Of a DNA stretch of 64,000 bases, positions 529-13,467 are shown piece after piece. The notes below the pieces were generated by a model. It was given only the letters and a program-made list of their open reading frames with translations, did no database searches and was not told the DNA's origin. Made by a program: the position numbers and the translations under genes. How positions within the stretch are numbered: position 1 is the stretch's first letter; every line of letters starts with the position of its first letter. The stretch lies in contig DRMV01000008.1 of assembly GCA_011322445.1 (NCBI GenBank), positions 1 to 64,000 on the forward strand. The letters run 5' to 3'. This DNA is from Chloroflexota bacterium (lineage in GTDB: Bacteria > Chloroflexota > Anaerolineae > Anaerolineales > DRMV01).

Positions 529-873
529 TCAACCACTTCGGTTAGATGTATCGCTGATCCCCCCCTGGGATGACGTTTGTGAATTTTCTCCCAGGTATGC
601 ACGCAGGAGCACACGGAATAGCTTAGCATGACTGCCGTTGTCCAGTTTGAGGTGTAGCAGTTCATGGACGATCACTTCCCACTGGAAAGCCAAGGGTAGA
701 TCCAGCAGTTCGGTGTTGAAGGTCAGGCGACCACGGCGAGATGCGCTGGCCCATTTGCGGCGCATGGCACGCAGGTGGATTTCTTTCACCTCGACGCCGA
801 TGCGCTTAGCCCAGCGGCGCACCTCGGCTTTGAACATTTCGCGGCGTACCAGGTTGTCGGTCAACTCACGCAT
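529..873 (-). CDS. YgjP/SprT-like zinc metallopeptidase-domain protein
   Basis: About 114 residues starting at MRELTDNL. This start overlaps the end of hsdR by 8 bases (ATGCGTGA), implying translational coupling. The protein has the HELLH zinc-binding motif followed by a short segment and a further histidine (N-G-S-H), the arrangement of the YgjP-like / DUF45 (M48-like) family. It is shorter than typical YgjP proteins (about 230 residues) and appears to hold only the C-terminal catalytic part. Such genes often follow hsdR in type I restriction operons; their function there is not established. It is the last gene of the leftward hsd operon. Confidence 0.75.
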   Translation of the reverse strand: MRELTDNLVRREMFKAEVRRWAKRIGVEVKEIHLRAMRRKWASASRRGRLTFNTELLDLPLAFQWEVIVHELLHLKLDNGSHAKLFRVLLRAYLGENSQTSSQGGISDTSNRSG

Positions 874-3856
874 GGCGCTTCGCCAACACATCCAGGATCT
901 CGTTCACCAGGGCAGAAACCTGCTTGTTGATGCCTTGCCGCAGCAACACCTTGTAGAGTGCCCGGCGCAGTTCGCGTTGCTGGCGCTGGCTGGTGGCCCA
1001 GTGGGGGTAAGCCTGGAAAGTCTGCACCAAATCCGTGGCTACAGCCCGGGCCGTCTCTTTGGACACGGCGTGATGCTGATGCAACAACCAATACACGGTG
1101 AAGGTCTCGGCTTCCAGACCTTGCTCGGCGAATTCCCGCTCGGCAGCGTTGATTTCGGCAATCAGGGCCTTGAGGGCATCTAAGGCCTCCTGAACGCTCT
1201 GCTGTCGTTCCTGGAAAGCCTGAACGATGGCCTCGGCCCGCTCGCCAATGGAGAGTAGGAAAGGCTTCGCCGTGGCCTCCTCAGCCACTTTCTGGCGGAT
1301 GGATTTTACCAGATTGAACACCTCCACGGTGGGCGGCTTACGGCTGGCCTCCAGGCGGCGAAGCAGGTCGGCATTGATTTCGTACACCTCCACCGCGCCA
1401 CGGATGGCCCCGCCCTGGGTGTGTTGTTGCACCAGAACCGCCGTCTTGCGTAACATCTCCCGAACATCCAAGCCAGCCTCGCTCCCCTCGTAGGCTTCCT
1501 GGAACATGGAGACCATCTGGGTCAGCAACGCATAGTCGTCCAGGTAGGGGCGCAGGAAAGCCGCCGGGGAGAGTACCTCGTACAGGTCAGCGAGTTCATC
1601 GAAGAAAGCGTAGAAAGCCTGCCGCGTTTCCTCGTCTCGAAAGTGGGAAAGCACTCGCTCAGCGGCCTTGTCGTCGCCGCCCGCGGCCAGGGGGATGTAC
1701 TCGCTGCGGGCCTGGGCCATCAGATGCTCAAAGCGCTCCCGCAGCACATCCAGGTCGGTGACCACGCCTTCAATGTCCTGAGAGTCAAAGGCCAAGGCCT
1801 TCTCCAAGTTTTCAAAAATGCCCACAAAGTCCACAATGAGACCGTGCTTTTTGCGCTGGCCGTCTTGCTCGTAGGGGCGGTTGACGCGTGCAATAGCCTG
1901 GAGGAGCACATGGTCGCGCATGGGTTTGTCCAGGTACATCACATAGAGGTTGGGCGCGTCGAAGCCGGTGAGTAACTTGGAGGTGACAATGAGAAACTTA
2001 GGATGTTCCTCGCGCCGGAAGCGATCGCGAATCTCCCGCTCTTCCTCCGCGCTGCGGTGATATTGGCGCAGCAAAGGTGGGTCATTGTAGTTGCTGCTGA
2101 TGACCACTTCGAAGGCTTCGGGCGGCAGGTAGCGTTCGGGATCTTCCCGATAGAGGCGCTCAAAGGCCTCTTGGTAAAGGGCACAGGCTTCCCGATCCAC
2201 GGCCACCATGAGGGCCTTGTAGCCCAAGGGCTCCACATATTCACGGTAGTGTTCGACCACGAAGCGGGCCACGCGTTGGATGCGGTCGTGGTTTTTGAGC
2301 ATGTTGCGCAGGGTGACGGCCCGTTCGAGGATACGGTTGAGTTCCTCGGGATCCGCCAGACCTTCGGCTTCGGCCAGGTCGAGGAATTCCCGTTCCAGGG
2401 TCTCGCGATCCACCCGCAGTTCGTTCTCGGCCAGGGTGTAGTGCAATGGGACGGTGGCACCGTCTTCGATGGACTCGCGGATGGAATACTTGTCTAAGTA
2501 GCCGTGGGGCGGGTCGTCCACCCCGAAGATTTGGAAGGTGCTCTTGCCGTGGGCGCTGCGGTCAATGGGTGTGCCGGTGAAGCCGAGGATGGTGGCGTTG
2601 GGCAGTGCGGCCATGAGATAAGTGCCCAGGTCGCCGCCGGTGGTGCGGTGGGCCTCGTCAATGAGCACGAAGATGTTGGCACGGGTGTTGATGTTGGCGG
2701 GCATCTGATGAAATTTGTGAATGGTGGACACGATAAGGCCACGGTAGTCCTGCCGCAGCAGGCCGCGCAGTTCGCGCTTGCTTTCGACCACCACGGCGTG
2801 CCCCAGCCCCACCGCGGCCAGGTTGGAGAAGAGTTGCTGCTCCAGATCGTTGCGGTCAACCAGCATCAACACGGTGGGGTTCTGGAAAAGAGGCTCGGCC
2901 AGCAGACGCTGGGCGATGGTGATCATGGTGAAGGTCTTGCCGGAGCCTTGAGTATGCCAGATGAGACCGCGGCGCTTGGGCTTTTGGCCCGGCGAAGGTT
3001 GCACGGCTTCCTCGGCGCGTTGCAGCACCTTGTCCACAGCCCGCATCTGGTGAGGGCGTAGGACAACTTTAGTCAGTTCGCCGTCGCGGTGGACAAAGAG
3101 GATGTAGTCGCGCAGCACGCGCACGATGCGCGCCGGGTGGACGAAAGCCTTGACCAGGGTTTCAAAATCCAAGGAGGGCGACTGGCCGGTCGCCCCAGAG
3201 GACGCAGACTCCACAGCCCCCGCAGTGGTGCGCCAATTGATAAGCGCCTTGCGCTCGGTGTTCCAGGTGGGGCCGTAGTAGAAGCGCACCAGGTGAGTGA
3301 TGGCGAAAAGCTGCATCAGCGCCAGCAAGGGCGCACCGTTCTCATGGTAGCGTCGCACTTGGATCAAGGCCTCAGCCAGACCCTCTCGCTTGTGTGCGGC
3401 TTTGGCCTCCACCAGCAGGACGGGGATGCCGTTGACGAAATAGGCAATGTCGATGCGGATAGGTTCGCGGCCTCCGGTGTAGCGCAGTTCCTGAGTGATA
3501 TGATAAAGGTTATTCTCCCAGTGCTCCAGATCCACCAAGCGGACGTTGCGCTCCCGCTTTTCCTCGGGAACATAAACGGTCTTGAGGCCGCGCAGGTATT
3601 CCCAGGTCTGCAGGTTGCCCTGGATGTTGGGGCGGATGCGGGCCAGACGGGCGGCCAGGTCTTCGGCTTCCCGCAGCCCGACCACGCCGGGGTTGAGGGC
3701 TTGCACCCGTTCGAGAAAGATATCGTAGAGGAGCAGGCCGTTGGTGCCTCGACGTAGGCGCTCGGCCTCCTCCTGGGAGAGTTCACGCCATTCCACCTCG
3801 GTGGAGTAGCGAGCCATGGGTTCCTGAACGGTGCGGCGTTCGGTGAAGCGGGGCAT
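866..3856 (-). CDS. hsdR: Type I restriction enzyme R subunit (HsdR)
   Basis: ATP-dependent translocase and endonuclease subunit of a type I restriction system, 996 residues from the chosen start MPRFTERR. That start has a GGGAG box 6 bases upstream; an open frame further upstream lacks a ribosome site and overlaps the preceding gene. The nuclease domain shows D136, then E150-x-K152 (VEAKAA), followed by a QxxxY motif near 166-170. Walker A is HTQGSGKT (301-308), the DEAH box is at 400-403, and later superfamily 2 motifs include TGFDAPN and the Q-x-x-x-R-x-x-R-like AIARVNRP. The length is normal and no damage is visible. It is cotranscribed with the genes upstream (18-base gap) and overlaps the metallopeptidase-like gene downstream. 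It needs HsdM and HsdS to cut DNA lacking host methylation. Confidence 0.95.
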   Translation of the reverse strand: MPRFTERRTVQEPMARYSTEVEWRELSQEEAERLRRGTNGLLLYDIFLERVQALNPGVVGLREAEDLAARLARIRPNIQGNLQTWEYLRGLKTVYVPEEKRERNVRLVDLEHWENNLYHITQELRYTGGREPIRIDIAYFVNGIPVLLVEAKAAHKREGLAEALIQVRRYHENGAPLLALMQLFAITHLVRFYYGPTWNTERKALINWRTTAGAVESASSGATGQSPSLDFETLVKAFVHPARIVRVLRDYILFVHRDGELTKVVLRPHQMRAVDKVLQRAEEAVQPSPGQKPKRRGLIWHTQGSGKTFTMITIAQRLLAEPLFQNPTVLMLVDRNDLEQQLFSNLAAVGLGHAVVVESKRELRGLLRQDYRGLIVSTIHKFHQMPANINTRANIFVLIDEAHRTTGGDLGTYLMAALPNATILGFTGTPIDRSAHGKSTFQIFGVDDPPHGYLDKYSIRESIEDGATVPLHYTLAENELRVDRETLEREFLDLAEAEGLADPEELNRILERAVTLRNMLKNHDRIQRVARFVVEHYREYVEPLGYKALMVAVDREACALYQEAFERLYREDPERYLPPEAFEVVISSNYNDPPLLRQYHRSAEEEREIRDRFRREEHPKFLIVTSKLLTGFDAPNLYVMYLDKPMRDHVLLQAIARVNRPYEQDGQRKKHGLIVDFVGIFENLEKALAFDSQDIEGVVTDLDVLRERFEHLMAQARSEYIPLAAGGDDKAAERVLSHFRDEETRQAFYAFFDELADLYEVLSPAAFLRPYLDDYALLTQMVSMFQEAYEGSEAGLDVREMLRKTAVLVQQHTQGGAIRGAVEVYEINADLLRRLEASRKPPTVEVFNLVKSIRQKVAEEATAKPFLLSIGERAEAIVQAFQERQQSVQEALDALKALIAEINAAEREFAEQGLEAETFTVYWLLHQHHAVSKETARAVATDLVQTFQAYPHWATSQRQQRELRRALYKVLLRQGINKQVSALVNEILDVLAKRHA

Positions 3857-3873
3857 AGACATCTCCCTCATTC

Positions 3874-6753
3874 TCATTGGATGCTGAAATGTAGTAAATC
3901 TCTGTACTCGAGAAATCCTCGGCTGCCAAGGTAATGGATTACCTGTTCTGCTGTTTGCTTTGCCTCGGGGGTTCCCAATGCCCATTGAAGAGCCTGTCGA
4001 ATGTGCTCCTGACCCGCGTAGAGTTCCCACCCCTCGATGTCTGCTTCTACGATCATCTTCAGGCATTCTACAGACTTCAAGGGATGCGTTTGGGCCGTTT
4101 CAGCCAAGCGTTCCAGTACCATACGGGTGGGTTCGATTTGGCCCGCGATTTCCAGGGAGGCGATTAACTGGTCAAGTGCCCAGCATGTATCAAATTTCGC
4201 CGACACAAACCACCAGCCAAAGGCCCTCATCTCTTCTGCAAAGGCGCTTGACGAGGAAGACGTTCTGGCCTGCTCCAGGCGGGATTCCCAAAGCCGCTTG
4301 AGGCGATCGAGAATTTCTTCAGGGGCTTGCCCCTCAGTCTGCATTAGAGCACGCCCTACAAAATCCAACGCATGTCCCCGTAGAGTCCCAGGCGCTTGTT
4401 CCCAGAACGTAGTGAGCAGAGGATCGTCCAGAGGGAGTTTCCCGCGCCAGAAGAACACCATCAAATGCTCTGCCAGTCTCTTGTCGGGATCGGCGTGCCA
4501 GGGCTTTTCCTCTCTTTGGTGGCCAATTCGTTTTACTGCATGACCGTACTGCTCACGGAGGAGATCGAAGGCATTGTCATAAGGCCTGTTGAGCGCAATA
4601 TAGGCGTTCCAGGCCGCTTCAAAGTAAGCCCGCTCTTCTTCATTGAGAGGGAAAATTCGAGTGACATGTTCATGTGCCCAGCCTTCATCCAAAAGCGCAA
4701 GCCACGGGAACCATTGTCCATAAACGGCTCGGATGGCGAAGGAAGGGTCTTTAGCAAGGTCCAGATGCGCTTCAAGCACCGCACGTACTTCGGGCATTTC
4801 CTCAAAGCCTTTGGCTAAGCGTTCGCTTGCGTCGGCTTGTTTTTTCAGGTAGCGACGGATCCAGAGAGCATATTGAAGAACGGCGTGCATGGCAGCGCCC
4901 CGGGTAGTGTTGATGGACAACGTAGCAGGGTCCATGCTGGTGTCTTTCTCACGTGACGGAGTAGGATCTGGATCCCCCGTCAATTGCTGCAAAATAGTCC
5001 ACGCCCTTTCCCGATAAGCCATAGGGAGCGCGGTCTCCTGCCGGAAGCCAGCGTCGAACAATTCCGCAAGGGCCTTTCGTGCCCATCCCCAGTCAGGGTC
5101 TCTCTCAAAATGGTGCACTTTGCGACCGGGGATATCCCTTGGTTGGGTGACAACCCAGTGAGAAAGGCGAAGCACCTGATCCCAATTGAAGGCTTGTTTG
5201 TGTTGCTCTATCGCCTGCCGAAGCCCCTCGAACAACGCTCGGACATATGTCGGGTCTGTCTCTTGGAAGTGTTCCGCCTGCTCGGTGAAACGACCGGGCT
5301 CCTCGGCGACGACCGAGGCCAGGACGCGGCCGAGGCCTTCAGGCGATGGCTCTTGAAACATCTCTTCCGGCGGCTGCCAGGTTTTTAGGAAAGTCACGAT
5401 TGCTTCGACCGACATGGCCTTCAATTCTTCGGCGGTTTTGGGGCTTCTCGGCCCGACCTCGCTAACCGTAAAATATACAGGGAACTCCGGATGCTCTGGC
5501 TCGCCATACCGTTGAACCAGGGCTCGATACTGCGCTCGCCAATCCTCAGGAAGGTTTTCAGGCCCAATCCATGCCAATCGGTCTCGCTGCCAGATTTCGC
5601 GGTAGCGGTCAATTTCTTCCTCTGTTGGTGCTTGGCCGTGCCGCTCTTGCCATTCTGCCCGGAATTGCTTGATCTCGGGGCCTTCCTCAATCCAGCGAAG
5701 AATCGTGTGCTGGTCTTCTGGTGAAAGGGCTGAGAAACCTTTTCTCAGCAAGAGGATATATTCATGTCGCACCCCCACGTCTTCAAAGAGTTCGCGGTCG
5801 GTCAAGTGGGCAGCGACCAGCCCTTTGGCCTGCTCATGGAACACCCTGAGGAGGTGTAGCGCAATTCGGCGGAAGACGTTCCAGGGTTTGGCTTCAAGGA
5901 AAGCCACCATTTCTTCCAAAGGTGCCTTGTCCTGCCTTACCGCCATCTCGGCGGCGTCACGGAGCCCTGAAACCAGTGCTTTGCGGGCATCCTCTCCCAT
6001 ATTTTGGGGGTGATCTTCAATGGCAGGACGCCAAGTAGTTGAAAAATCCGTGCCCTCTTGGACTTCTTCTCGCCGTAGCGAGAGCCGTATGGCTTTATCG
6101 AGAAGGTTACAAAGCAATTCCAATGCAGGGAAAGGGGCTATTCGGACGAGTTCTGGATAGTGCTCCTCTAAAATCTGTTCATAATCCCACATCTTGAAGC
6201 GTGGCCTGGGTTCCGAAAGTAGCGAATGCGCTACATCTGGATCACTTGCGTCAAGGGATACATCCAGCAACTCAGATGCCAAACGCAAGGCTTCCTCGGC
6301 TTTCCCGGCCCGTGCCCAATGGGCCAGGAGAGCCCCCAGTTTCTCAGGTAGAAGCAGAAGCAAATAGGGGGTTGCTGCCCATTTCAGCGCCTTCTCCACC
6401 AGCGTGACAGAAATCTCGGGGGGCATGGCAAGAGCAGCCTCTATTAAGGCCTGAAGCACAGCAGGGTTTTCTGTATCCTCCATCTGTTGAATAATTTCGG
6501 CCACAACATCGGGCTTGTATTTTGCCATCCGTGCCAGGTAACGCGCTTCAGGCCAGGGAGGAAAGCGGATAGTGCCTTTCTCCTCATTTCGTACTGGCTG
6601 CGGAGGATGTTTAAAGAAGCCCTCATTCCAAAGCGGCTTCAGCCACTCGGGGTTTTCAAGTCGGTCGAAGAAGTAGCGGTAATGCTCGGCGCACACAAGT
6701 AATGCTATTGCCCGGTCAACTTGCTCAGGCGTTGGCTTCTTCCAGGAGCGCAT
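3874..6753 (-). CDS. Unrecognised 959-residue helical protein in hsd operon
   Basis: A large soluble protein between hsdS and hsdR. The N-terminus (AEHYRYFFDRLENPEWLKPL region) is followed by a proline-rich turn (GFFKHPPQPV), then mostly amphipathic helices with many Ala, Leu and Glu residues, suggesting HEAT/TPR-like solenoid repeats. I see no Walker motif, nuclease motif, signal peptide or membrane segment. Its start overlaps the preceding gene by 29 bases and its stop lies 18 bases before hsdR, so all are probably one transcript. I do not recognise the family with certainty. Position in the operon suggests a role connected to restriction or phage defence (scaffold or sensor); that is inference only. 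Confidence 0.8.
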   Translation of the reverse strand: MRSWKKPTPEQVDRAIALLVCAEHYRYFFDRLENPEWLKPLWNEGFFKHPPQPVRNEEKGTIRFPPWPEARYLARMAKYKPDVVAEIIQQMEDTENPAVLQALIEAALAMPPEISVTLVEKALKWAATPYLLLLLPEKLGALLAHWARAGKAEEALRLASELLDVSLDASDPDVAHSLLSEPRPRFKMWDYEQILEEHYPELVRIAPFPALELLCNLLDKAIRLSLRREEVQEGTDFSTTWRPAIEDHPQNMGEDARKALVSGLRDAAEMAVRQDKAPLEEMVAFLEAKPWNVFRRIALHLLRVFHEQAKGLVAAHLTDRELFEDVGVRHEYILLLRKGFSALSPEDQHTILRWIEEGPEIKQFRAEWQERHGQAPTEEEIDRYREIWQRDRLAWIGPENLPEDWRAQYRALVQRYGEPEHPEFPVYFTVSEVGPRSPKTAEELKAMSVEAIVTFLKTWQPPEEMFQEPSPEGLGRVLASVVAEEPGRFTEQAEHFQETDPTYVRALFEGLRQAIEQHKQAFNWDQVLRLSHWVVTQPRDIPGRKVHHFERDPDWGWARKALAELFDAGFRQETALPMAYRERAWTILQQLTGDPDPTPSREKDTSMDPATLSINTTRGAAMHAVLQYALWIRRYLKKQADASERLAKGFEEMPEVRAVLEAHLDLAKDPSFAIRAVYGQWFPWLALLDEGWAHEHVTRIFPLNEEERAYFEAAWNAYIALNRPYDNAFDLLREQYGHAVKRIGHQREEKPWHADPDKRLAEHLMVFFWRGKLPLDDPLLTTFWEQAPGTLRGHALDFVGRALMQTEGQAPEEILDRLKRLWESRLEQARTSSSSSAFAEEMRAFGWWFVSAKFDTCWALDQLIASLEIAGQIEPTRMVLERLAETAQTHPLKSVECLKMIVEADIEGWELYAGQEHIRQALQWALGTPEAKQTAEQVIHYLGSRGFLEYRDLLHFSIQ

Positions 6754-7438
6754 CTAGTTCCTCCACTGTTTTGAAGAATCCTCTAACTATCCCTGATAAT
6801 GCATACTCAAAAATCTCGAAGCGTTCTTTAAGTTCATCAGCTCCCATGTGTGCGTCGGTCGCACCTCTCTCATGAGCCCGTTTTACAAACCATTCGGTAC
6901 TTTCAAGCCAAAATATAATTCTTGGCCTAAGAGTCTCCTCTGATAGGCTATTGTTAGGATCGATTGCCTGAAACAAACGTCGTGCTGTTTCGTACCTCTT
7001 TTCGCGAACTCTTTCATAGTCACTTACCAGTTTGGCAATCTTTTTATAGACCTTCCGCGGAATCGGTATCTTATTACGGTCAGGCAAGGTTTCTGATAAG
7101 GTTACTTCCGTTGGTGGTAAAGAACCATCCAAAGGGAGGCCATGTCGCCCCCAAACGTCCAGAATCTCATTAAGCCGGTTTTTGTATTGGAACTGACCTT
7201 CTGCCTTAGGCCCTGCTATCACATCGGGCAGTCGGTTTCGTATCTCACGAACAGCGTGTGAAACGAACCGAACTCTGCCGGGAAAGTTCTCACGGAACAC
7301 CATCGCCAGCGCCCCCTCATAGAGTTCTCCAAGAGATGGCGCCTCTTTCCTGAACCACGCTCGTAATTCTCTGCGCAATGGGGTCCAATAAACTGATTGT
7401 TTGCTGTATTCAGGTTCTTCAAATGGAGACCTGCTCAC
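6725..7438 (-). CDS. Unrecognised 237-residue protein in hsd operon
   Basis: Start chosen at a GTG with AGGAGG nine bases upstream; this overlaps the end of the HepT-HsdS gene by 20 bases, and the stop overlaps the next gene by 29 bases. This double overlap suggests tight translational coupling with the 959-residue protein, so the two are likely partners. The sequence is soluble and helical, with a conserved-looking core around SHAVREIRNRLPD in the first third and a Lys/Arg-rich middle. No catalytic motif is apparent. Function unknown. The gene sits where a type I operon normally has nothing between hsdS and hsdR, and may be part of an added defence module. Confidence 0.8.
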   Translation of the reverse strand: MSRSPFEEPEYSKQSVYWTPLRRELRAWFRKEAPSLGELYEGALAMVFRENFPGRVRFVSHAVREIRNRLPDVIAGPKAEGQFQYKNRLNEILDVWGRHGLPLDGSLPPTEVTLSETLPDRNKIPIPRKVYKKIAKLVSDYERVREKRYETARRLFQAIDPNNSLSEETLRPRIIFWLESTEWFVKRAHERGATDAHMGADELKERFEIFEYALSGIVRGFFKTVEELDALLEEANA

Positions 7439-9038
7439 GGCTATTGACCTCCTCAAACCGCTGCACAACCCCCTGCGGTAGGCGCACCTTGGCCGTCATC
7501 AGGTGATGGAGCAGGGAACGGAAGAGGTCGTCCAGCGCCTGCTGCCGTGCTTCTTCGGCCTCGATTTTGCGATCCACCGTTTGCAGGATGCGGGCGATGG
7601 CGCGTTGCTCCGGGAGTGGGGGGAGGGGGATAAAGGCTTGGCTTAAGGCTTTCCAAGAGGTTCGAGGATGGTTGACTCCTGCGGTGGTAGCAATTGCGTG
7701 GTTTAGAACAAAGGGAGTGTGCATCAAGTAGGCTAAGAAAAGAGGCTCGGCCTTTACTGGCTGAAGCACAAGAATATCTGTGGAGCACACACCAGGCCAT
7801 TCTGCTATAGCGGCTTTGTCCAAATAGGGACGTAGTTTGCCGTACAACACATCTCCTTCCTCAAATACCGATTTTGCGCTGCGAGTGGAGCCGGCACGGC
7901 CAAATTGCTTGATGCGTATCTCGCCAGGAGTTAGGTGTTCAAGGCCAATGTACCGTGCATTAGGAGCATCTGATGGATGGATGGTACCCTTGCGTAGTGT
8001 TACCACGTCCCCCAACCTCACCACGCGCCAATGAGCGGGGATGGGGCCAATAGGGGTATCCTGCAGCGCCACCTGGTCAGCCATGTCCACAGGCACGGGG
8101 CCGTAGGTGAAGAGGTGGCGCATGAGGGCGCGTTTGAAGTCGCGCAGGGCGACGATGACGCGTGCAGTGGCCTCGCTGGCTTCTTGCACCGTCCGCAGCA
8201 CATGGGCAATGGCGCGCTGTTCGGGCAGGGGCGGGTGTAGGATAAGGAACTCTTGAAGTGTCTTCTTGTTGATGCTTTGGAAGATCGTGCCCGAAGCCTC
8301 GCTCCTTAATCTCGGACGTTCGTAAAGCAATACGAAGAACAGATACCAAGCATCCGTGTGCTGCTTTGGCCTAACCTCTGCTAAACCACGGCCTATAGCA
8401 TATCTTCGATCCGAAATATTTACGTTGCCCACTGGGGCTCGAACTGAAATCAATATGGACCAAGAGGCAGATATACGTTTGGGCTGTGTCGTCCATTTGG
8501 TATTTCTCGGAAAGATCTCTCCGAACTCAGCCTTACCTTGCAAGAAGGCTACACCTTTACCGTTCTCATTGTAGCTAGATGAAGGCGGTGATTGTCCCAT
8601 ATAAATGTTAGCCACATCAGATAGGTGCTTTACACTCCAATTTGATGGTAAATCAACAAGAACTTCGATCATTGGTATGTACCTCATGATCTTATCTTTA
8701 AGATCGGGTAAACGGCGCCTTGCCACATCCCATACTATTTCAAGATCAACATTATCAAGGTTGTGTACAAGTACATCTCTCATTCCAGAGATATCTTTCC
8801 AGGGGATATCGGGAATGCGTTGACGAAGAGGTATGGGTAGCCTCTTTGCTGCTTCTCCGATTATTTCGATGGTTTTTATGACAGCATATCGTTTTTCATC
8901 ATTTCTGATGAAATCATTATATTCAACACCTTCAACGAAATAGCGACCTCGCCGACATTCTCGTGCAATAATGGAAAACGTTTTTCTTACTAATTGGACG
9001 GCTTCCGTTTCCATCGCTAATTGTGCCTTTGTTCTCAT
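7419..9038 (-). CDS. hsdS: HepT-like (DUF86/HEPN) domain fused to type I specificity subunit HsdS
   Basis: 539 residues in one uninterrupted frame. Residues 10-128 match the HepT/DUF86 fold: a helical domain with the HEPN motif R87-x4-H92 (MRDVLVHN) followed by VDLEIVWDV. Residues 131-539 are a full HsdS: first target-recognition domain from PSNWSVKHL, a conserved spacer helix with PLPEQRAIA (about 270-315), a second target-recognition domain from AHWRVVRLG, and a second PLPEQRAIA helix. HsdS chooses the DNA site for methylation and cleavage; HepT domains are RNase toxins of MNT/HEPN systems. The Tyr usually AMPylated in HepT (RX4HXY) is Leu94 here. Met123 is preceded by GAGG nine bases upstream, so HsdS could also be made alone from about base 8672. 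No MNT antitoxin gene is adjacent. Confidence 0.85.
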   Translation of the reverse strand: MRTKAQLAMETEAVQLVRKTFSIIARECRRGRYFVEGVEYNDFIRNDEKRYAVIKTIEIIGEAAKRLPIPLRQRIPDIPWKDISGMRDVLVHNLDNVDLEIVWDVARRRLPDLKDKIMRYIPMIEVLVDLPSNWSVKHLSDVANIYMGQSPPSSSYNENGKGVAFLQGKAEFGEIFPRNTKWTTQPKRISASWSILISVRAPVGNVNISDRRYAIGRGLAEVRPKQHTDAWYLFFVLLYERPRLRSEASGTIFQSINKKTLQEFLILHPPLPEQRAIAHVLRTVQEASEATARVIVALRDFKRALMRHLFTYGPVPVDMADQVALQDTPIGPIPAHWRVVRLGDVVTLRKGTIHPSDAPNARYIGLEHLTPGEIRIKQFGRAGSTRSAKSVFEEGDVLYGKLRPYLDKAAIAEWPGVCSTDILVLQPVKAEPLFLAYLMHTPFVLNHAIATTAGVNHPRTSWKALSQAFIPLPPLPEQRAIARILQTVDRKIEAEEARQQALDDLFRSLLHHLMTAKVRLPQGVVQRFEEVNSREQVSI

Positions 9039-9208: not shown

Positions 9209-10822
9209 TCAGGATGGTTGTTGTTTTTGTGGATCCGTAGCGTCCTTATCAATCAATCCCAAGACGCGTAGGACGCCTTGCAGGGCGCGGTCGGCCTCGG
9301 AGCGGGTCTCCTCGGCCTCGCGCAGCCGCACCACGGCCTCCTCCAGGGGCAACACCTCCTCCTCGTCGTTCTGGGCCACGTAGCGGTTGGGGCTCAGGTT
9401 GTAGTCATTGGCCGCGGCCTCCTCGGTGGTGATAATGCGGCTCAGGCCCTCTTCTTCGGCCCAGTCGTGATACACGCGGGCGATGCGATCCACATGCTCG
9501 TCGGTCAGTTCGTTTTTGGGGCGGCCTTTGACGAAGAGGCGGGAGGCGTTGATGAGCAGGATCTCGCTTGGATGGCGCTTCTGCTTGTTGATGACCATGA
9601 TGATGCCGGGCGCGGTGGTGTTGTAGAAGAGGTTTTCAGGCAGCAGGATGACGGCTTCGATGAGGTCGCCCGGCACGGTGACATCGCCCTCGATGAAGCG
9701 CTTGCGGATGTCGCGCTCGCGGTTGCTGCCGCGCGTGCCGCTGCCCCGGCTTACCGCGCCCGTGTCCAACACCACGGCCATGCGACCTGTGTCGTTCAAC
9801 GAGGCCACCATGTGCTGCACCCAGCCCCAGTCCGCGCTGGATGCGGGCGGCACGCCGTAGGGAAAGCGATTGTACGGGTCGTGCTCGTACACCTCGGTGG
9901 GGATATCCTGGTTCCACATGGGATTGGCGACTATCAGATCAAAACGGCGCAGGTGACTTCCCGCAGTGTCCAGGAACGCGGGCTTGCGCATCGTATCGCC
10001 CAGGCGGATGTCCGCATCTTCAATATCGTGGACGACCACGTTCATCCAGGCCATGGCGTAGGCTGAAGCGTTGATGTCCTGGCCGAAGACGCGGATTTCC
10101 GCGATATGGCCGGAGGGCTTTAGACGACCATTCTCCTCCTCGCCGTACTTTTCCAGGAAGCGAAGAAAGGTCTTGACCAGGAGGCCGCCGGAGCCGCAGG
10201 TGGGGTCATACACGCTCATGCCGGGTTCGGGGTCGAGGATGCGAGCCATGAGCACGCTGACCATGCGCGGGGTGTAGAACTCGCCCGCGGACTGGCCCGC
10301 GCCCTCCGCAAACTTGCGCAGCAGGTACTCGTAGGCACGGCCCAGGATGTCGGGCTCCACATCGTCCAGGCCCAGACGATGCTGGGAAAGAACCTGAATC
10401 AGGCGGTGCAGGTGGGGATCATCCACAATGCGCTGGCCCGCGGTGGTGGCGTTGAAGTCGGTAATGTCAATGACGCCGCTCAGGCGCGGGTTTTCGCGAG
10501 CCACGGCCCGCACGGCGTCGGTCAGGCGCTGGCCCAGGCCCTGGGCGGGCAGGTCGCGCAAGGTGGCCCAGCGGGCCGTCGAAGGGATATAGAAACGCAC
10601 TAGGGCGTGATCTTCGTCCACCATCTCCCGCGCCTGCTCCGGCGGCATGCCAAACTCAGCAGCCACGCGCTGCACTTCGTCGTCGAACACATCAGACAGG
10701 CGTTTGAGGAAGATGAGGGGGAGGATGTAGTCCTTGAACTTGGGCGCATCTACCGGCCCGCGGATGGCGCAAGCGGCCTCCCAGAGCCAGGATTCCAGGG
10801 TGGAAATATCCAGGGTGGTCAT
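9209..10822 (-). CDS. hsdM: Type I DNA methyltransferase subunit (HsdM)
   Basis: N6-adenine methyltransferase subunit, 537 residues from MTTLDISTLE; an upstream extension of the frame has no ribosome site. The helical N-terminal HsdM domain is followed by the SAM-binding motif DPTCGSGG (206-213) and the catalytic motif IV at 300-303, which reads NPMW rather than the common NPPF/Y. The remaining fold around LPENLFYNTTAPG and the C-terminal helices fit HsdM. With HsdS it forms the modification enzyme, and with HsdR the restriction complex. It is the first gene of the leftward operon, with a probable extended -10 promoter about 115 bases upstream of the start. Confidence 0.95.
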   Translation of the reverse strand: MTTLDISTLESWLWEAACAIRGPVDAPKFKDYILPLIFLKRLSDVFDDEVQRVAAEFGMPPEQAREMVDEDHALVRFYIPSTARWATLRDLPAQGLGQRLTDAVRAVARENPRLSGVIDITDFNATTAGQRIVDDPHLHRLIQVLSQHRLGLDDVEPDILGRAYEYLLRKFAEGAGQSAGEFYTPRMVSVLMARILDPEPGMSVYDPTCGSGGLLVKTFLRFLEKYGEEENGRLKPSGHIAEIRVFGQDINASAYAMAWMNVVVHDIEDADIRLGDTMRKPAFLDTAGSHLRRFDLIVANPMWNQDIPTEVYEHDPYNRFPYGVPPASSADWGWVQHMVASLNDTGRMAVVLDTGAVSRGSGTRGSNRERDIRKRFIEGDVTVPGDLIEAVILLPENLFYNTTAPGIIMVINKQKRHPSEILLINASRLFVKGRPKNELTDEHVDRIARVYHDWAEEEGLSRIITTEEAAANDYNLSPNRYVAQNDEEEVLPLEEAVVRLREAEETRSEADRALQGVLRVLGLIDKDATDPQKQQPS

Positions 10823-10933
10823 GGGTCTCTGCACTCCGTGGCGATGTCCATTGCCAAGAGGGGATCGTGAAGAAAAAAGAATTTGTCCCCTTATTAATCT
10901 CATAAGGCTCTAATCAGGCGTAGTAACACAAGC

Positions 10934-10952: not shown

Positions 10953-11220
10953 GAATTGTGCGACACGATTTTGAGAGTTGCATCTTGGCCGTGTATTCTT
11001 CCCTTATGTCTATCTTCCCCGCATGTTCTGGAGCACCATCTTTCTGTACCTCAACAAGGTCTGCTATTCTTGGCCTCATTGCATCTTTAAGCAAGAGGAG
11101 GCCGTTATGAACTTGGAGACTTTGTTGGACGATTTCTTTGCCACCCACTCTTGGAGCGCAGCCACGGAAGCCAGTTATCGCCGCGTCCTGATGCTGTTTC
11201 TGGAAGACGTCGCCGACACG
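10953..11220. repeat. Diverged duplicated upstream region, copy 1
   Basis: Begins with GAATTGTGCGACAC (10953-10966). After 106 bases comes GTCTGCTATTCTTG, then a conserved stretch with the GCAAGAGGAGGCC ribosome site and the first 35 or so codons of a tyrosine recombinase. Copy 2 (15202-15445) has the same order with a 100-base spacing and clear similarity in the recombinase part. Confidence 0.7.
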
Positions 11221-11730
11221 TCCACCCTCACGGCCATTGAGTTCAAGCGGTGGCTGGAAGGGCACGAAAGTTGGGGCGAGAATATGCGTTGGATGGCTTA
11301 CGTCGCTGTATGAAACTATCTGCGCTGGCGACACGGTGATTTGCACCCTGCCCTGCGATACCGTTTCCAGCGCAGGGAACGGGGCAAACCCCAGCGTACC
11401 CTCACGCCAGAGCAAATTACTCGTTTGCTGGCAATCCTTCCTGACACCCCCATTGGAAAGCGCAACCGTACGCTAATTCTGCTTATGCTGGATACAGGCT
11501 TGCGGGCGGCCGAGGTGTGCCGTTTGGAGATGCGCTTTTTAGACCTGGGCACCCGCCACCTTTCAGTGCTCGCGAAAGGAGAGAAGTGGCGCACCTGCAT
11601 TTTCGGGGAGCCAACCGCAGAGGCGTTACGCGCCTGACTTGAAGTGCGAGAGGCGAGCGAGGAAACGCAAACGGTCTTTGTATCCATTAGTATCTCCCTT
11701 CGGAAACCGCAGTCAGGAGGCGATAGCCTT
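11107..11730 (+). pseudogene. Broken tyrosine recombinase (XerC/D-like)
   Basis: Starts at ATG 11107 after a good AAGAGGAGG site. The frame encodes a SAM-like N-terminal core-binding domain, then an in-frame TGA at 11311, then NYLRWRHG and a catalytic-domain start with the active-site Arg in DTGLRAAEV and the Lys region around AKGEKWR. A second in-frame TGA lies at 11635 and the frame ends near 11730. The C-terminal half with the HxxR and Tyr nucleophile is missing. Both stops fall where the family often has Trp or Arg, so simple point mutations explain them. This is an inactive integrase remnant within the island. Confidence 0.8.
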
Positions 11731-11879
11731 TAATTACGGCCTGGTAGCGCTTCGACGGCTCGCTGGACCAAGACGCGCTGGGGCTGGATGCGTGGCTCGT
11801 GGAGGAAGATAAAACAAAGGGGGCCTGTGGGGCGGTAGGGTGAGAAAATCGTTAGGGGGGATTCGGGTGTGGTACAATT
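11731..11879. other. Intergenic sequence after broken recombinase
   Basis: About 150 bases with no convincing gene. It may contain decayed recombinase sequence, but I cannot align it by eye to the missing catalytic half. Confidence 0.3.
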
Positions 11880-11928
11880 CCCATATTGGGAAAAAGCCCA
11901 TTGACTTTTTCCCAATATGGGATATACT
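11880..11928 (+). promoter_or_regulatory. higBA promoter within a perfect 17-bp palindromic operator
   Basis: A perfect 17-bp inverted repeat (left arm 11880-11896, right arm 11905-11921; spacer of 8) reads CCCATATTGGGAAAAAG and its complement. The -35 TTGACT (11901-11906) starts in the spacer and a -10 TATACT (11923-11928) follows at 16-bp spacing. A repressor bound to the palindrome would cover the promoter. The obvious candidate is the HigA HTH domain encoded downstream, giving autoregulation; this is inferred. Confidence 0.8.
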
Positions 11929-11956
11929 TACTCATGGAGCGCGTCAAGGAATTGCA

Positions 11957-12250
11957 ATGCACGTTATCTCAAAAAAGAAGCTTATCGAGTGCTGGACTCA
12001 GCATCCTGATGCCGAACAACCCCTAAAAGCGTGGCACGCAGAGGCAAAGAAGGCTCAGTGGAAGACACCGGCGGATGTCAAAGAGAAATTCGGCAGTGCA
12101 AGCATTCTTGCCAATAACCGCGTGGTATTCAACATTGGGGGCAACAAATACCGCCTGGTGGTGGAAATCCACTACAAAGGAAAGGTGGTCTTTGTCCGTT
12201 GGGTAGGCACTCATGCCGAATATGACCGGATAAACGCAGAGGAAATCTGA
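11957..12250 (+). CDS. higB: HigB-like mRNA interferase toxin
   Basis: 97 residues from ATG 11957, with AAGGA six bases upstream. The sequence MHVISKKKLIECW, the DVKEKFGSA stretch and the C-terminal VVFVRWVGTHAEYDRI match the HigB family of RelE-fold toxins, which cleave mRNA at the ribosome. The basic and aromatic C-terminal residues typical of the active surface are present and the length is normal. The stop overlaps the start of the antitoxin gene (TGATG), and the operon is led by a palindromic operator. Toxin-first order is typical of higBA. Confidence 0.9.
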   Translation: MHVISKKKLIECWTQHPDAEQPLKAWHAEAKKAQWKTPADVKEKFGSASILANNRVVFNIGGNKYRLVVEIHYKGKVVFVRWVGTHAEYDRINAEEI

Positions 12251-13467
12251 TGAAACCCCAGGTAATCAAAACCCCAGAGGAATACGAACAAGCTCTGGCG
12301 CATATCGAGACCTTGATGGATGCAACTCCCGGCTCTGCCGAGGAAAAGGAACTGGAACTCTTTGTGCTGTTGGTGGAAGCCTACGAAGAGGAACACTTTC
12401 CCGTCGGTTTGCCGGATCCTATCGAGGCCATCAAATTCCGCATGGAACAAGAGGGACTGACGCGCAAGGACTTGGTGCCTTACATTGGCAGCATGAGCAA
12501 GGTGTCCGAAGTCCTCAACCGCAAGCGCCCTCTCAGCCTGAGGATGATCCGCAGGTTGCACGCGGGGCTGGGCATTCCGGCCGAAGTGCTGCTTCAGGAA
12601 CCGGGGAAAGAGAGCATTGCCCCTCCCCGGTACACCGTGAGTGAATTCCCTTTCAGTAAAATGTTCAAGCGCGGCTATTTTCAGTTTTCGGGGCCGCTGA
12701 CCATGGCGAAGGAATATGGCGAAGAACTCTTGGCTGAATTGTTCTCGGTATTTGGAGAGCAAGCGCCCCAGGCGCTCTACCGCCGGGCGGACAAGGAAGT
12801 CGACGAAAAAGCCCTCCTGGCCTGGTTGGCTCGGGCAATGCAGCTGGCGCGGCAGGAAAACTTGCCGCCTTATAACCCCGAAGACCTCACGGAAACCTTT
12901 TTCCAGTATCTGGTGGGGTTAAGCATTTTCGACAATGGACCGGTGTTGGCCAAAGAGTTCCTGAACAAGAATGGCATTCACCTGATCGTGCTCCGACACC
13001 TTCCCAAAACTTATCTGGACGGCGCCGCTTTCATCGCTCCCACCGGCCGGCCGGCTGTAGGGCTGACGCTGCGGTATGACCGTCTGGATAACTTCTGGTT
13101 CACCTTGCTGCACGAGTTGGCGCACGTTCGTCTTCACCTCCACGATGGGAACGTGGCCTTTTTCGACGACACCGAAAAGCAGCCGGAAGGGGACGACCCC
13201 AAAGAGCAAGAAGCCAACCAGTTTGCGCGCAACGCGCTCATCCCGCCGGCGGCCTGGGAAGAATGGAAAGACCGGTTGCTCACCAATTACGCCGACGACC
13301 TCCTGAAGACTTTTGCCCACCGGCTGCGCATCCATCCGGCCATCGTCGCCGGCCGTGTCCGCTGGGAAACCGGAGATTACACCCACCATTCGTCTTTGCT
13401 GGGGACAGGGATGGTACGGAAGCAACTTTTGAAAGAGGAGTGCCGCCTTGTACCGTCTGAGGTGTAG
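12250..13467 (+). CDS. higA: HigA-type HTH antitoxin fused to ImmA/IrrE metallopeptidase domain
   Basis: 405 residues, about four times the usual length of HigA. Residues 1-118 match HigA-like antitoxins, with a helix-turn-helix around 68-105 (LTRKDLVPYIG, SKVSEVLNRKR). Residues 210-345 are an ImmA/IrrE-type zinc peptidase with H288-E-L-A-H292 and a downstream acidic ligand around E321 (EQEANQFA). The peptidase could cleave the protein's own DNA-binding part or another repressor, as ImmA and IrrE do, and so link toxin release to stress; that link is inferred. The start overlaps the higB stop by one base. There is no sign of frame damage. Confidence 0.85.
   Translation: MKPQVIKTPEEYEQALAHIETLMDATPGSAEEKELELFVLLVEAYEEEHFPVGLPDPIEAIKFRMEQEGLTRKDLVPYIGSMSKVSEVLNRKRPLSLRMIRRLHAGLGIPAEVLLQEPGKESIAPPRYTVSEFPFSKMFKRGYFQFSGPLTMAKEYGEELLAELFSVFGEQAPQALYRRADKEVDEKALLAWLARAMQLARQENLPPYNPEDLTETFFQYLVGLSIFDNGPVLAKEFLNKNGIHLIVLRHLPKTYLDGAAFIAPTGRPAVGLTLRYDRLDNFWFTLLHELAHVRLHLHDGNVAFFDDTEKQPEGDDPKEQEANQFARNALIPPAAWEEWKDRLLTNYADDLLKTFAHRLRIHPAIVAGRVRWETGDYTHHSSLLGTGMVRKQLLKEECRLVPSEV

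Follow-up and report, generated by a model that had tools for sequence, protein, structure and literature searches.

The closest described counterparts of the two genes considered here are anti-phage proteins of the DSR and Avs kinds. DSR2 and Avs combine an N-terminal effector with a C-terminal helical sensor, and PMC10973363 reports that DSR2 is activated by a phage tail tube protein via its C-terminal part. SIR2 and TIR domains are described as NAD-degrading effectors in defence (PMC10952713). Defence genes can also be nested in restriction operons: the type IC operon EcoprrI contains prrC (PMC3874165), and PrrC is a precedent for an embedded second line of defence in a type I operon (PMC3874165, PMC12707154). 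Here we describe two genes, SMALL and LARGE, on the minus strand of contig DRMV01000008.1 of a Chloroflexota bacterium, where the gene order is hsdM, hsdS, SMALL, LARGE, hsdR. Coordinates are given in the forward-strand numbering of the window, i.e., the whole 64,000-nucleotide stretch of this contig that was analysed.

On balance we think it probable that SMALL and LARGE form an anti-phage module of the DSR1/Avs kind, made up of one sensor gene and one effector gene, which was adopted by a type I restriction operon. The pair resembles DSR1 in that LARGE matches the DSR1 C-terminal solenoid and that SIR2-bearing relatives from the same phylum root its tree as outgroup, but it differs in having no SIR2, in placing a separate gene, SMALL, at the effector position, in consisting of two open reading frames (ORFs) rather than a single gene, and in lying within a restriction operon. 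It shares the sensor-effector logic of DSR2 and Avs; unlike Avs and Avs4, it has no STAND NTPase and no Avs match in PADLOC. As with prrC, an extra defence gene stands inside a type I operon, between hsdS and hsdR, although the proteins are unrelated and this type of pair also occurs in II/IIG-like and III operons and alone. PrrC has an ABC-type ATPase and an anticodon nuclease region, and no family of either kind matched SMALL or LARGE at E<=1 in Pfam or PADLOC.

LARGE and the DSR1 family

On its profile matches, LARGE (3874-6753, minus strand; 959 amino acids (aa)), the proposed phage sensor, represents the C-terminal solenoid of DSR1, an anti-phage family, minus the SIR2 domain. The PADLOC Dsr1 profile (PDLC04166) matched it at E=4.8e-56, aligning residues 10-947 of LARGE (938 residues) to positions 307-1214 of a 1227-position profile, and matched 39 of the 45 aligned LARGE proteins at E<=0.01. 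An earlier reading of the same DNA from its sequence only, made before any database search, had called LARGE unrecognised, and this homology to the DSR1 C-terminus overturns that description. NCBIfam Dsr1 also matched, at E 2.5e-13. Pfam found no SIR2 in LARGE or SMALL, the alignment to the PADLOC Dsr1 profile starting only at 307, and no P-loop NTPase family in either protein; a PADLOC scan of the window protein and of the 45 aligned LARGE proteins gave no Avs match. A housekeeping identity, which the sequence-only reading had named as evidence that would speak against an accessory role, was ruled out, as LARGE matches DSR1 models only and its neighbours vary.

The AlphaFold2 model of LARGE is a confident helical solenoid (mean predicted local distance difference test score (pLDDT) 90.6, predicted template modelling score 0.71), the shape that had been expected from the sequence. 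The top Foldseek match of this model was Avs4 with a phage portal (8dgf; E 1.6e-5, template modelling (TM) score 0.42 by query length), whose TM score exceeds those of the other rows listed for LARGE; HEAT-repeat proteins come next in that listing. Since VIA gave HEAT-repeat proteins only among the 50 chains listed (up to Z 15.7), with Avs4 not among them, we treat the Avs4 likeness of the model as a lead and not as a result.

SMALL and its relatives

SMALL (6725-7438, minus strand; 237 aa) is the proposed effector. The window protein found nothing better than E 0.2 in Pfam, NCBIfam, PADLOC or PHROGs, in keeping with the earlier view of it as unrecognised, and by these searches it is a new partner family without a name in annotation tools. 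Across an alignment of 51 sequences H61, R64 and H189 are kept in 51/51, and position 65 is D in 26 and E in 25; the family is otherwise very divergent (14-55% identity to the window protein in a 45-row set). The sequence-only reading saw no catalytic motif, a claim that fails for SMALL, where four invariant charged or polar positions look catalytic once relatives are aligned. Judged by residue types, which amounts to a guess, this His/Arg/acidic/His set weakly suggests a metal-independent nuclease.

The predicted model of SMALL is all helical (pLDDT 83.2). Fold searches returned just generic helical bundles and receptors bearing a helical fusion partner, at E 0.5 or worse, and we therefore claim no fold family for it; solved structures searched with its sequence gave none that was convincing. 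Single-sequence search found no SMALL relatives on plasmids or viral contigs. A HEPN RNase was considered, on account of the helical bundle and the invariant His and Arg; R64, H61 and H189 lie outside the usual R-x4-6-H spacing, and Pfam gave the window protein no HEPN family match. Some relatives bear a faint sequence likeness to pP_pnuc_1 (PF18165), a predicted pPIWI-associating nuclease, which 4/45 family members matched at E<=0.05, the lowest value being 2.1e-4. Among the ORFs searched, the SMALL profile matched a single PF18165 protein (E 6e-4), and the profile-profile comparison gave E 0.026 with a probability of 1.9%. Unlike these relatives, the window SMALL is itself unmatched, and the listed scores of the relatives all lie under 26.3 bits, below the gathering cut-off, which leaves this possible relation as a faint lead only.

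Pairing and effector exchange

Genome contigs scanned with the LARGE alignment yielded 57 loci, in most of which a SMALL relative lies directly upstream of LARGE; L038, L045 and L066 among them are contigs also met in a search of 400 genomes sampled from the window's phylum. In that search, with LARGE counted at E<=1e-6 and SMALL at E<=1e-3, LARGE was found in 18/400 genomes and SMALL in 10/400, all 10 within the 18, and SMALL was adjacent to or fused with LARGE in every one of the ten (G000, G117, G157 and G266 included). The pairing is obligate in these genomes, and because the tandem is conserved across several phyla the arrangement is not due to chance. A weak match of the first scan (L005/L014, in G281) was discarded as chance, with no LARGE gene nearby.

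SMALL and LARGE are also found as natural fusion proteins (L007, L015, L016, L048, L051, L064, L100, L102, L103). A SMALL profile built from separate genes only matched seven of ten fused N-termini at E<1e-4, those ten alone being searched, and none of eight SIR2/TIR/STAND-type and other N-termini; by hhalign the fused N-termini matched this profile over the full length (probability 95.5%, E 1.6e-8). The earlier suggestion of an accessory module is therefore upheld, since the two genes are conserved together, separate or fused, and LARGE is related to a defence protein.

Where SMALL is missing, other modules stand in its place. Among the eight genomes with LARGE but no SMALL, the protein starts with SIR2 in four (G033, G060, G101, G388), with TIR in G007 and with DUF4062 plus a P-loop in G130; no family was assigned to the N-terminus in G133, and in G062 LARGE was seen only as a 42-bit fragment. 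By locus, the fused front modules are SIR2_2 (L107-L110), TIR_2 (L105) and DUF4062 plus P-loop (L101), and LARGE relatives, which a single-sequence search placed on 11 plasmids, mostly haloarchaeal, carry AAA/STAND-like N-termini on the haloarchaeal ones. Exchange is also seen among the LARGE proteins nearest to the window's: those of L015 (71% identical) and L016 (57-58%) have a fused, divergent SMALL, that of L018 (59%) a separate SMALL 55% identical to the window SMALL, and that of L017 (46%) a separate SIR2_2 gene 7 base pairs (bp) upstream, SMALL not being found there. On a tree of LARGE, the effector label must change at least 11 times and the label 'restriction gene adjacent' at least 10 times. 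This tree was made by a quick method without bootstrap and has long branches, the SIR2-bearing relatives being its outgroup, and its labels were set by hand and are approximate owing to L034 and L060-type cases. Broken or cut LARGE proteins are omitted from it, among them those of L013, L018, L022, L030, L041, L043, L052, L055, L056, L058, L060, L065, L067, L070, L071, L103, L106 and L112. ORFs were called by a crude script, and spurious ones are possible in G+C-rich contigs.

Relatives have SIR2, TIR or STAND-type modules where the window has SMALL, and all ten sampled genomes with SMALL have it paired or fused with LARGE. LARGE is therefore probably the phage sensor and SMALL the effector, a role read from its position. 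SMALL might instead be an adaptor or inhibitor that controls LARGE, with the harm done by LARGE or by a neighbouring restriction enzyme. Small helical proteins often act as adaptors, and the lack of any fold or family match for SMALL would suit such a role. We nonetheless regard it as unlikely: SMALL occupies the position of SIR2 and TIR enzymes and is fused at the N-terminus of LARGE as they are, its four polar or charged positions are invariant in so divergent a family, and a pair standing alone must supply its own effector, which LARGE, made of helical repeats only, does not offer.

A row of genes in L100 (5989-15295) was noted separately: hsdR, a short ORF, a Ser/Thr kinase gene (Pkinase 2.5e-27) and a SMALL-LARGE fusion.

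Restriction context

We counted a restriction gene as adjacent when it lay on the same strand within 400 bp, using the 60 SMALL loci besides the window as the base. By this measure SMALL-LARGE is repeatedly placed in restriction operons, with a directly adjacent restriction gene in 16/60 loci. The neighbours are of type I in L015, L016, L023, L037 (a fragment), L039 and L046; of type III, in the order mod, SMALL, LARGE, res, in L035, L042, L050, L057 and L059, all Poribacteria; and II/IIG-like methylases in L011 and L012 (methylase-HNH, same genus), L034 (methylase only), and L054 and L060 (Eco57I family). L018 has hsdS fragments (E 2e-4, 7e-4) with hsdM farther upstream. The DUF4062 form in L101 likewise adjoins mod and res.

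Two of these arrangements deserve mention for their layout. Methylase-HNH fusions stand directly ahead of SMALL-LARGE in L011 (7895-9382; N6_N4_Mtase 1.5e-38, HNH 5e-13) and L012 (7634-9028), and in L101 (3846-14000) type III mod and res are followed by a 1480-aa DUF4062 - P-loop - LARGE fusion (Pfam DUF4062 1.5e-22).

Pfam families in 49 adjacent genes included N6_N4_Mtase (7), ResIII (7), TypeIII_RM_meth (4), N6_Mtase (3), Methylase_S (2), Eco57I (2) and HSDR_N (2). For 49 of the 97 genes at least 5 kilobases (kb) away, no such restriction family was among the 25 of 53 families listed, a lone one being possible. Restriction ORFs made up 25/142 at less than 1 kb, 10/173 at 1-3 kb, 6/229 at 3-6 kb and 6/139 beyond, counts that tilt towards near genes as several search seeds were near genes; the near/far Pfam comparison is free of that bias.

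The remaining 44/60 loci have no directly adjacent restriction gene, though in six of them the upstream flank is short or missing or restriction genes lie slightly farther away, and L013, L026 and L041 have no usable upstream flank. Because of these 44 loci an obligate link to restriction is excluded and a functional tie is not required. The sequence-only reading, which held that the pair travels with this restriction system and that frequent occurrence away from defence genes would tell against it, thus stands in part: the pair frequently lies inside restriction operons, but those of type III and II/IIG-like as well, and often in none. From this distribution SMALL-LARGE is best described as a module adopted by restriction operons, not as type I machinery.

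The same counts bear on a guard in the style of PrrC, in which SMALL-LARGE would physically rest on the type I complex and fire in response to inhibition or alteration of that complex by a phage anti-restriction protein. The site between hsdS and hsdR is also that of prrC (PMC3874165), SMALL is translationally coupled to hsdS, and the module adjoins restriction genes of three types, yet in the 44 loci the pair has no adjacent restriction gene, the partner types differ so that no one contact surface could be conserved, and Pfam found no PrrC-like ATPase domain in SMALL or LARGE. We rate this guard as a little less likely still than the adaptor, and favour the adopted sensor-effector module.

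Locus and host operon

All five genes lie on the minus strand, and Pfam identified each of hsdM, hsdS and hsdR, the genes of a type I restriction-modification system. The methyltransferase gene hsdM (9209-10903; 564 aa as an ORF) matched N6_Mtase (3.7e-90) and HsdM_N (5.3e-24), and hsdS (7419-9038; 539 aa) matched Methylase_S (1.4e-34) and, at its N-terminus, a HepT-like domain (1.1e-21). For hsdR (866-3856; 996 aa from ATG 3856, ORF open to 4066; HSDR_N 1.3e-25, SWI2_SNF2 8.5e-63) the ATGs 3877-3856 are better starts than ATG 4066: ATG 3877 gives a 4-bp overlap with the LARGE stop, and ATG 3856 is preceded by GAGGGAG. The SMALL ORF is open up to TTG 7468 (247 aa), and the 237-aa form starts at GTG 7438, the candidate with the best Shine-Dalgarno-like sequence (AGGAGG, 7448-7453, minus strand, within hsdS). 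LARGE starts at ATG 6753, with a Shine-Dalgarno-like GGAGG (6760-6764, minus strand) within SMALL. SMALL shares 20 bp with hsdS, whose stop is at 7419, and 29 bp with LARGE, so the two overlapping ORFs ahead of hsdR are as first described, both with a Shine-Dalgarno-like start. A promoter and terminator scan was uninformative, with counts no higher than in shuffled sequence. Since G+C at third codon positions is 0.52 in hsdS, 0.43 in SMALL and 0.57 in LARGE vs 0.79 in hsdM and 0.77 in hsdR, it looks as if hsdS, SMALL and LARGE have a different history from hsdM and hsdR.

The host operon was compared through HsdR relatives 46-57% identical over the aligned length, seven of which have hsdM, hsdS and hsdR all or nearly all in view (hsdM was not identified in L135). 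In four (L138, L140, L141, L143) hsdS is followed directly by hsdR, which agrees with the earlier statement that this place is normally empty in type I operons; three carry other inserts, and prrC in EcoprrI (PMC3874165) is a further departure from it. By eye, the insert is a REP-transposase-like gene in L135 and L136, and in L142 (4087-9388) it comprises a 1403-aa CHAT-STAND-like protein (CHAT plus NTPase-like), a TIR-like protein and a small gene. The junction of hsdS and hsdR may thus be one that defence cargo enters preferentially. That recombination at this site merely trapped SMALL and LARGE as degenerate or accidental passengers, as the REP-associated transposase-like genes might suggest, is very improbable, as neither ORF is broken, each has a good ribosome-binding site and the pair recurs with three restriction types and in several phyla. 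The modified operon seems to have moved as a whole between phyla, since L015 shares hsdM (71% identity), hsdS (41%) and LARGE (71%) with the window.

The HepT-like domain of HsdS (7419-9038) has no MntA partner gene seen beside it and is missing from relatives of HsdS. The proposal that the pair works with this HepT-HsdS fusion was rejected, as a HepT relative was found in 0/1202 ORFs of the module loci. Past hsdR, a small ORF (529-891, minus strand) with an HELLHLK motif resembles a YgjP-type metallopeptidase by eye, and short ORFs like it follow hsdR in L137, L138, L139, L140 and L142. Divergent from hsdM lie pieces of a tyrosine-recombinase-like gene (10978-11637, plus strand; by eye), which hint at a mobile-element border. 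A HigB-type toxin-like gene (11840-12250, plus strand; by eye) is followed by a 405-aa ORF (12250-13467).

Discussion

In the mechanism that we propose, LARGE would do the sensing, its HEAT/TPR-like solenoid probably binding a protein made by the phage, and SMALL would be a small helical enzyme kept silent by LARGE. On binding of the phage protein, LARGE would release or arrange SMALL, which would then damage the infected cell. Translation after hsdS would tie production of the pair to that of the restriction enzyme, and the pair could serve as a second line of defence once phages escape restriction. We infer in this way the toxicity and the target of SMALL, the ligand of LARGE and any physical coupling with the restriction enzyme.

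Several points weigh against a sensor-effector module. For SMALL there was no clear fold match in PDB or BFVD (Foldseek best E 0.52-0.56), its best VIA score (Z 7.0) is in the range of unrelated helical bundles, and its conserved residues could be structural rather than catalytic; its effector activity is putative. Solved structures searched with the LARGE sequence gave no convincing match, and because its NCBIfam Dsr1 score of 48.7 bits is far under the cut-off of 1400 its function may have drifted. The 44 loci without an adjacent restriction gene belong here too.

A broader interpretation, to which we give slightly less than an even chance, is that SMALL is the first of a new family of toxic enzymes with an invariant H-x-x-R-[DE] ... 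H set, and that it normally acts as the effector in a large branch of DSR1/Avs-type sensors that has no name. Restriction operons of types I, II/IIG-like and III would have taken up this branch repeatedly as a built-in second line, the sensor being free to swap this effector for SIR2, TIR or STAND modules. We found no paper that joins DSR1 to restriction operons in this way, in a search that covered subscription papers and preprints thinly and so does not establish absence from print. Annotation tools give SMALL no name and would at most call LARGE a partial DSR1, so that systems of this kind escape notice or are counted wrongly.

The locus ties together restriction operons, DSR1-type sirtuin defence and Avs-type sensing, which are usually studied apart, and SMALL, short as it is, offers a clear set of residues for mutation. 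It predicts that a single family of solenoid sensors would plug into NADases, STAND NTPases or a previously unrecognised helical protein, and it suggests that restriction systems adopt ready-made alarm-and-suicide modules.

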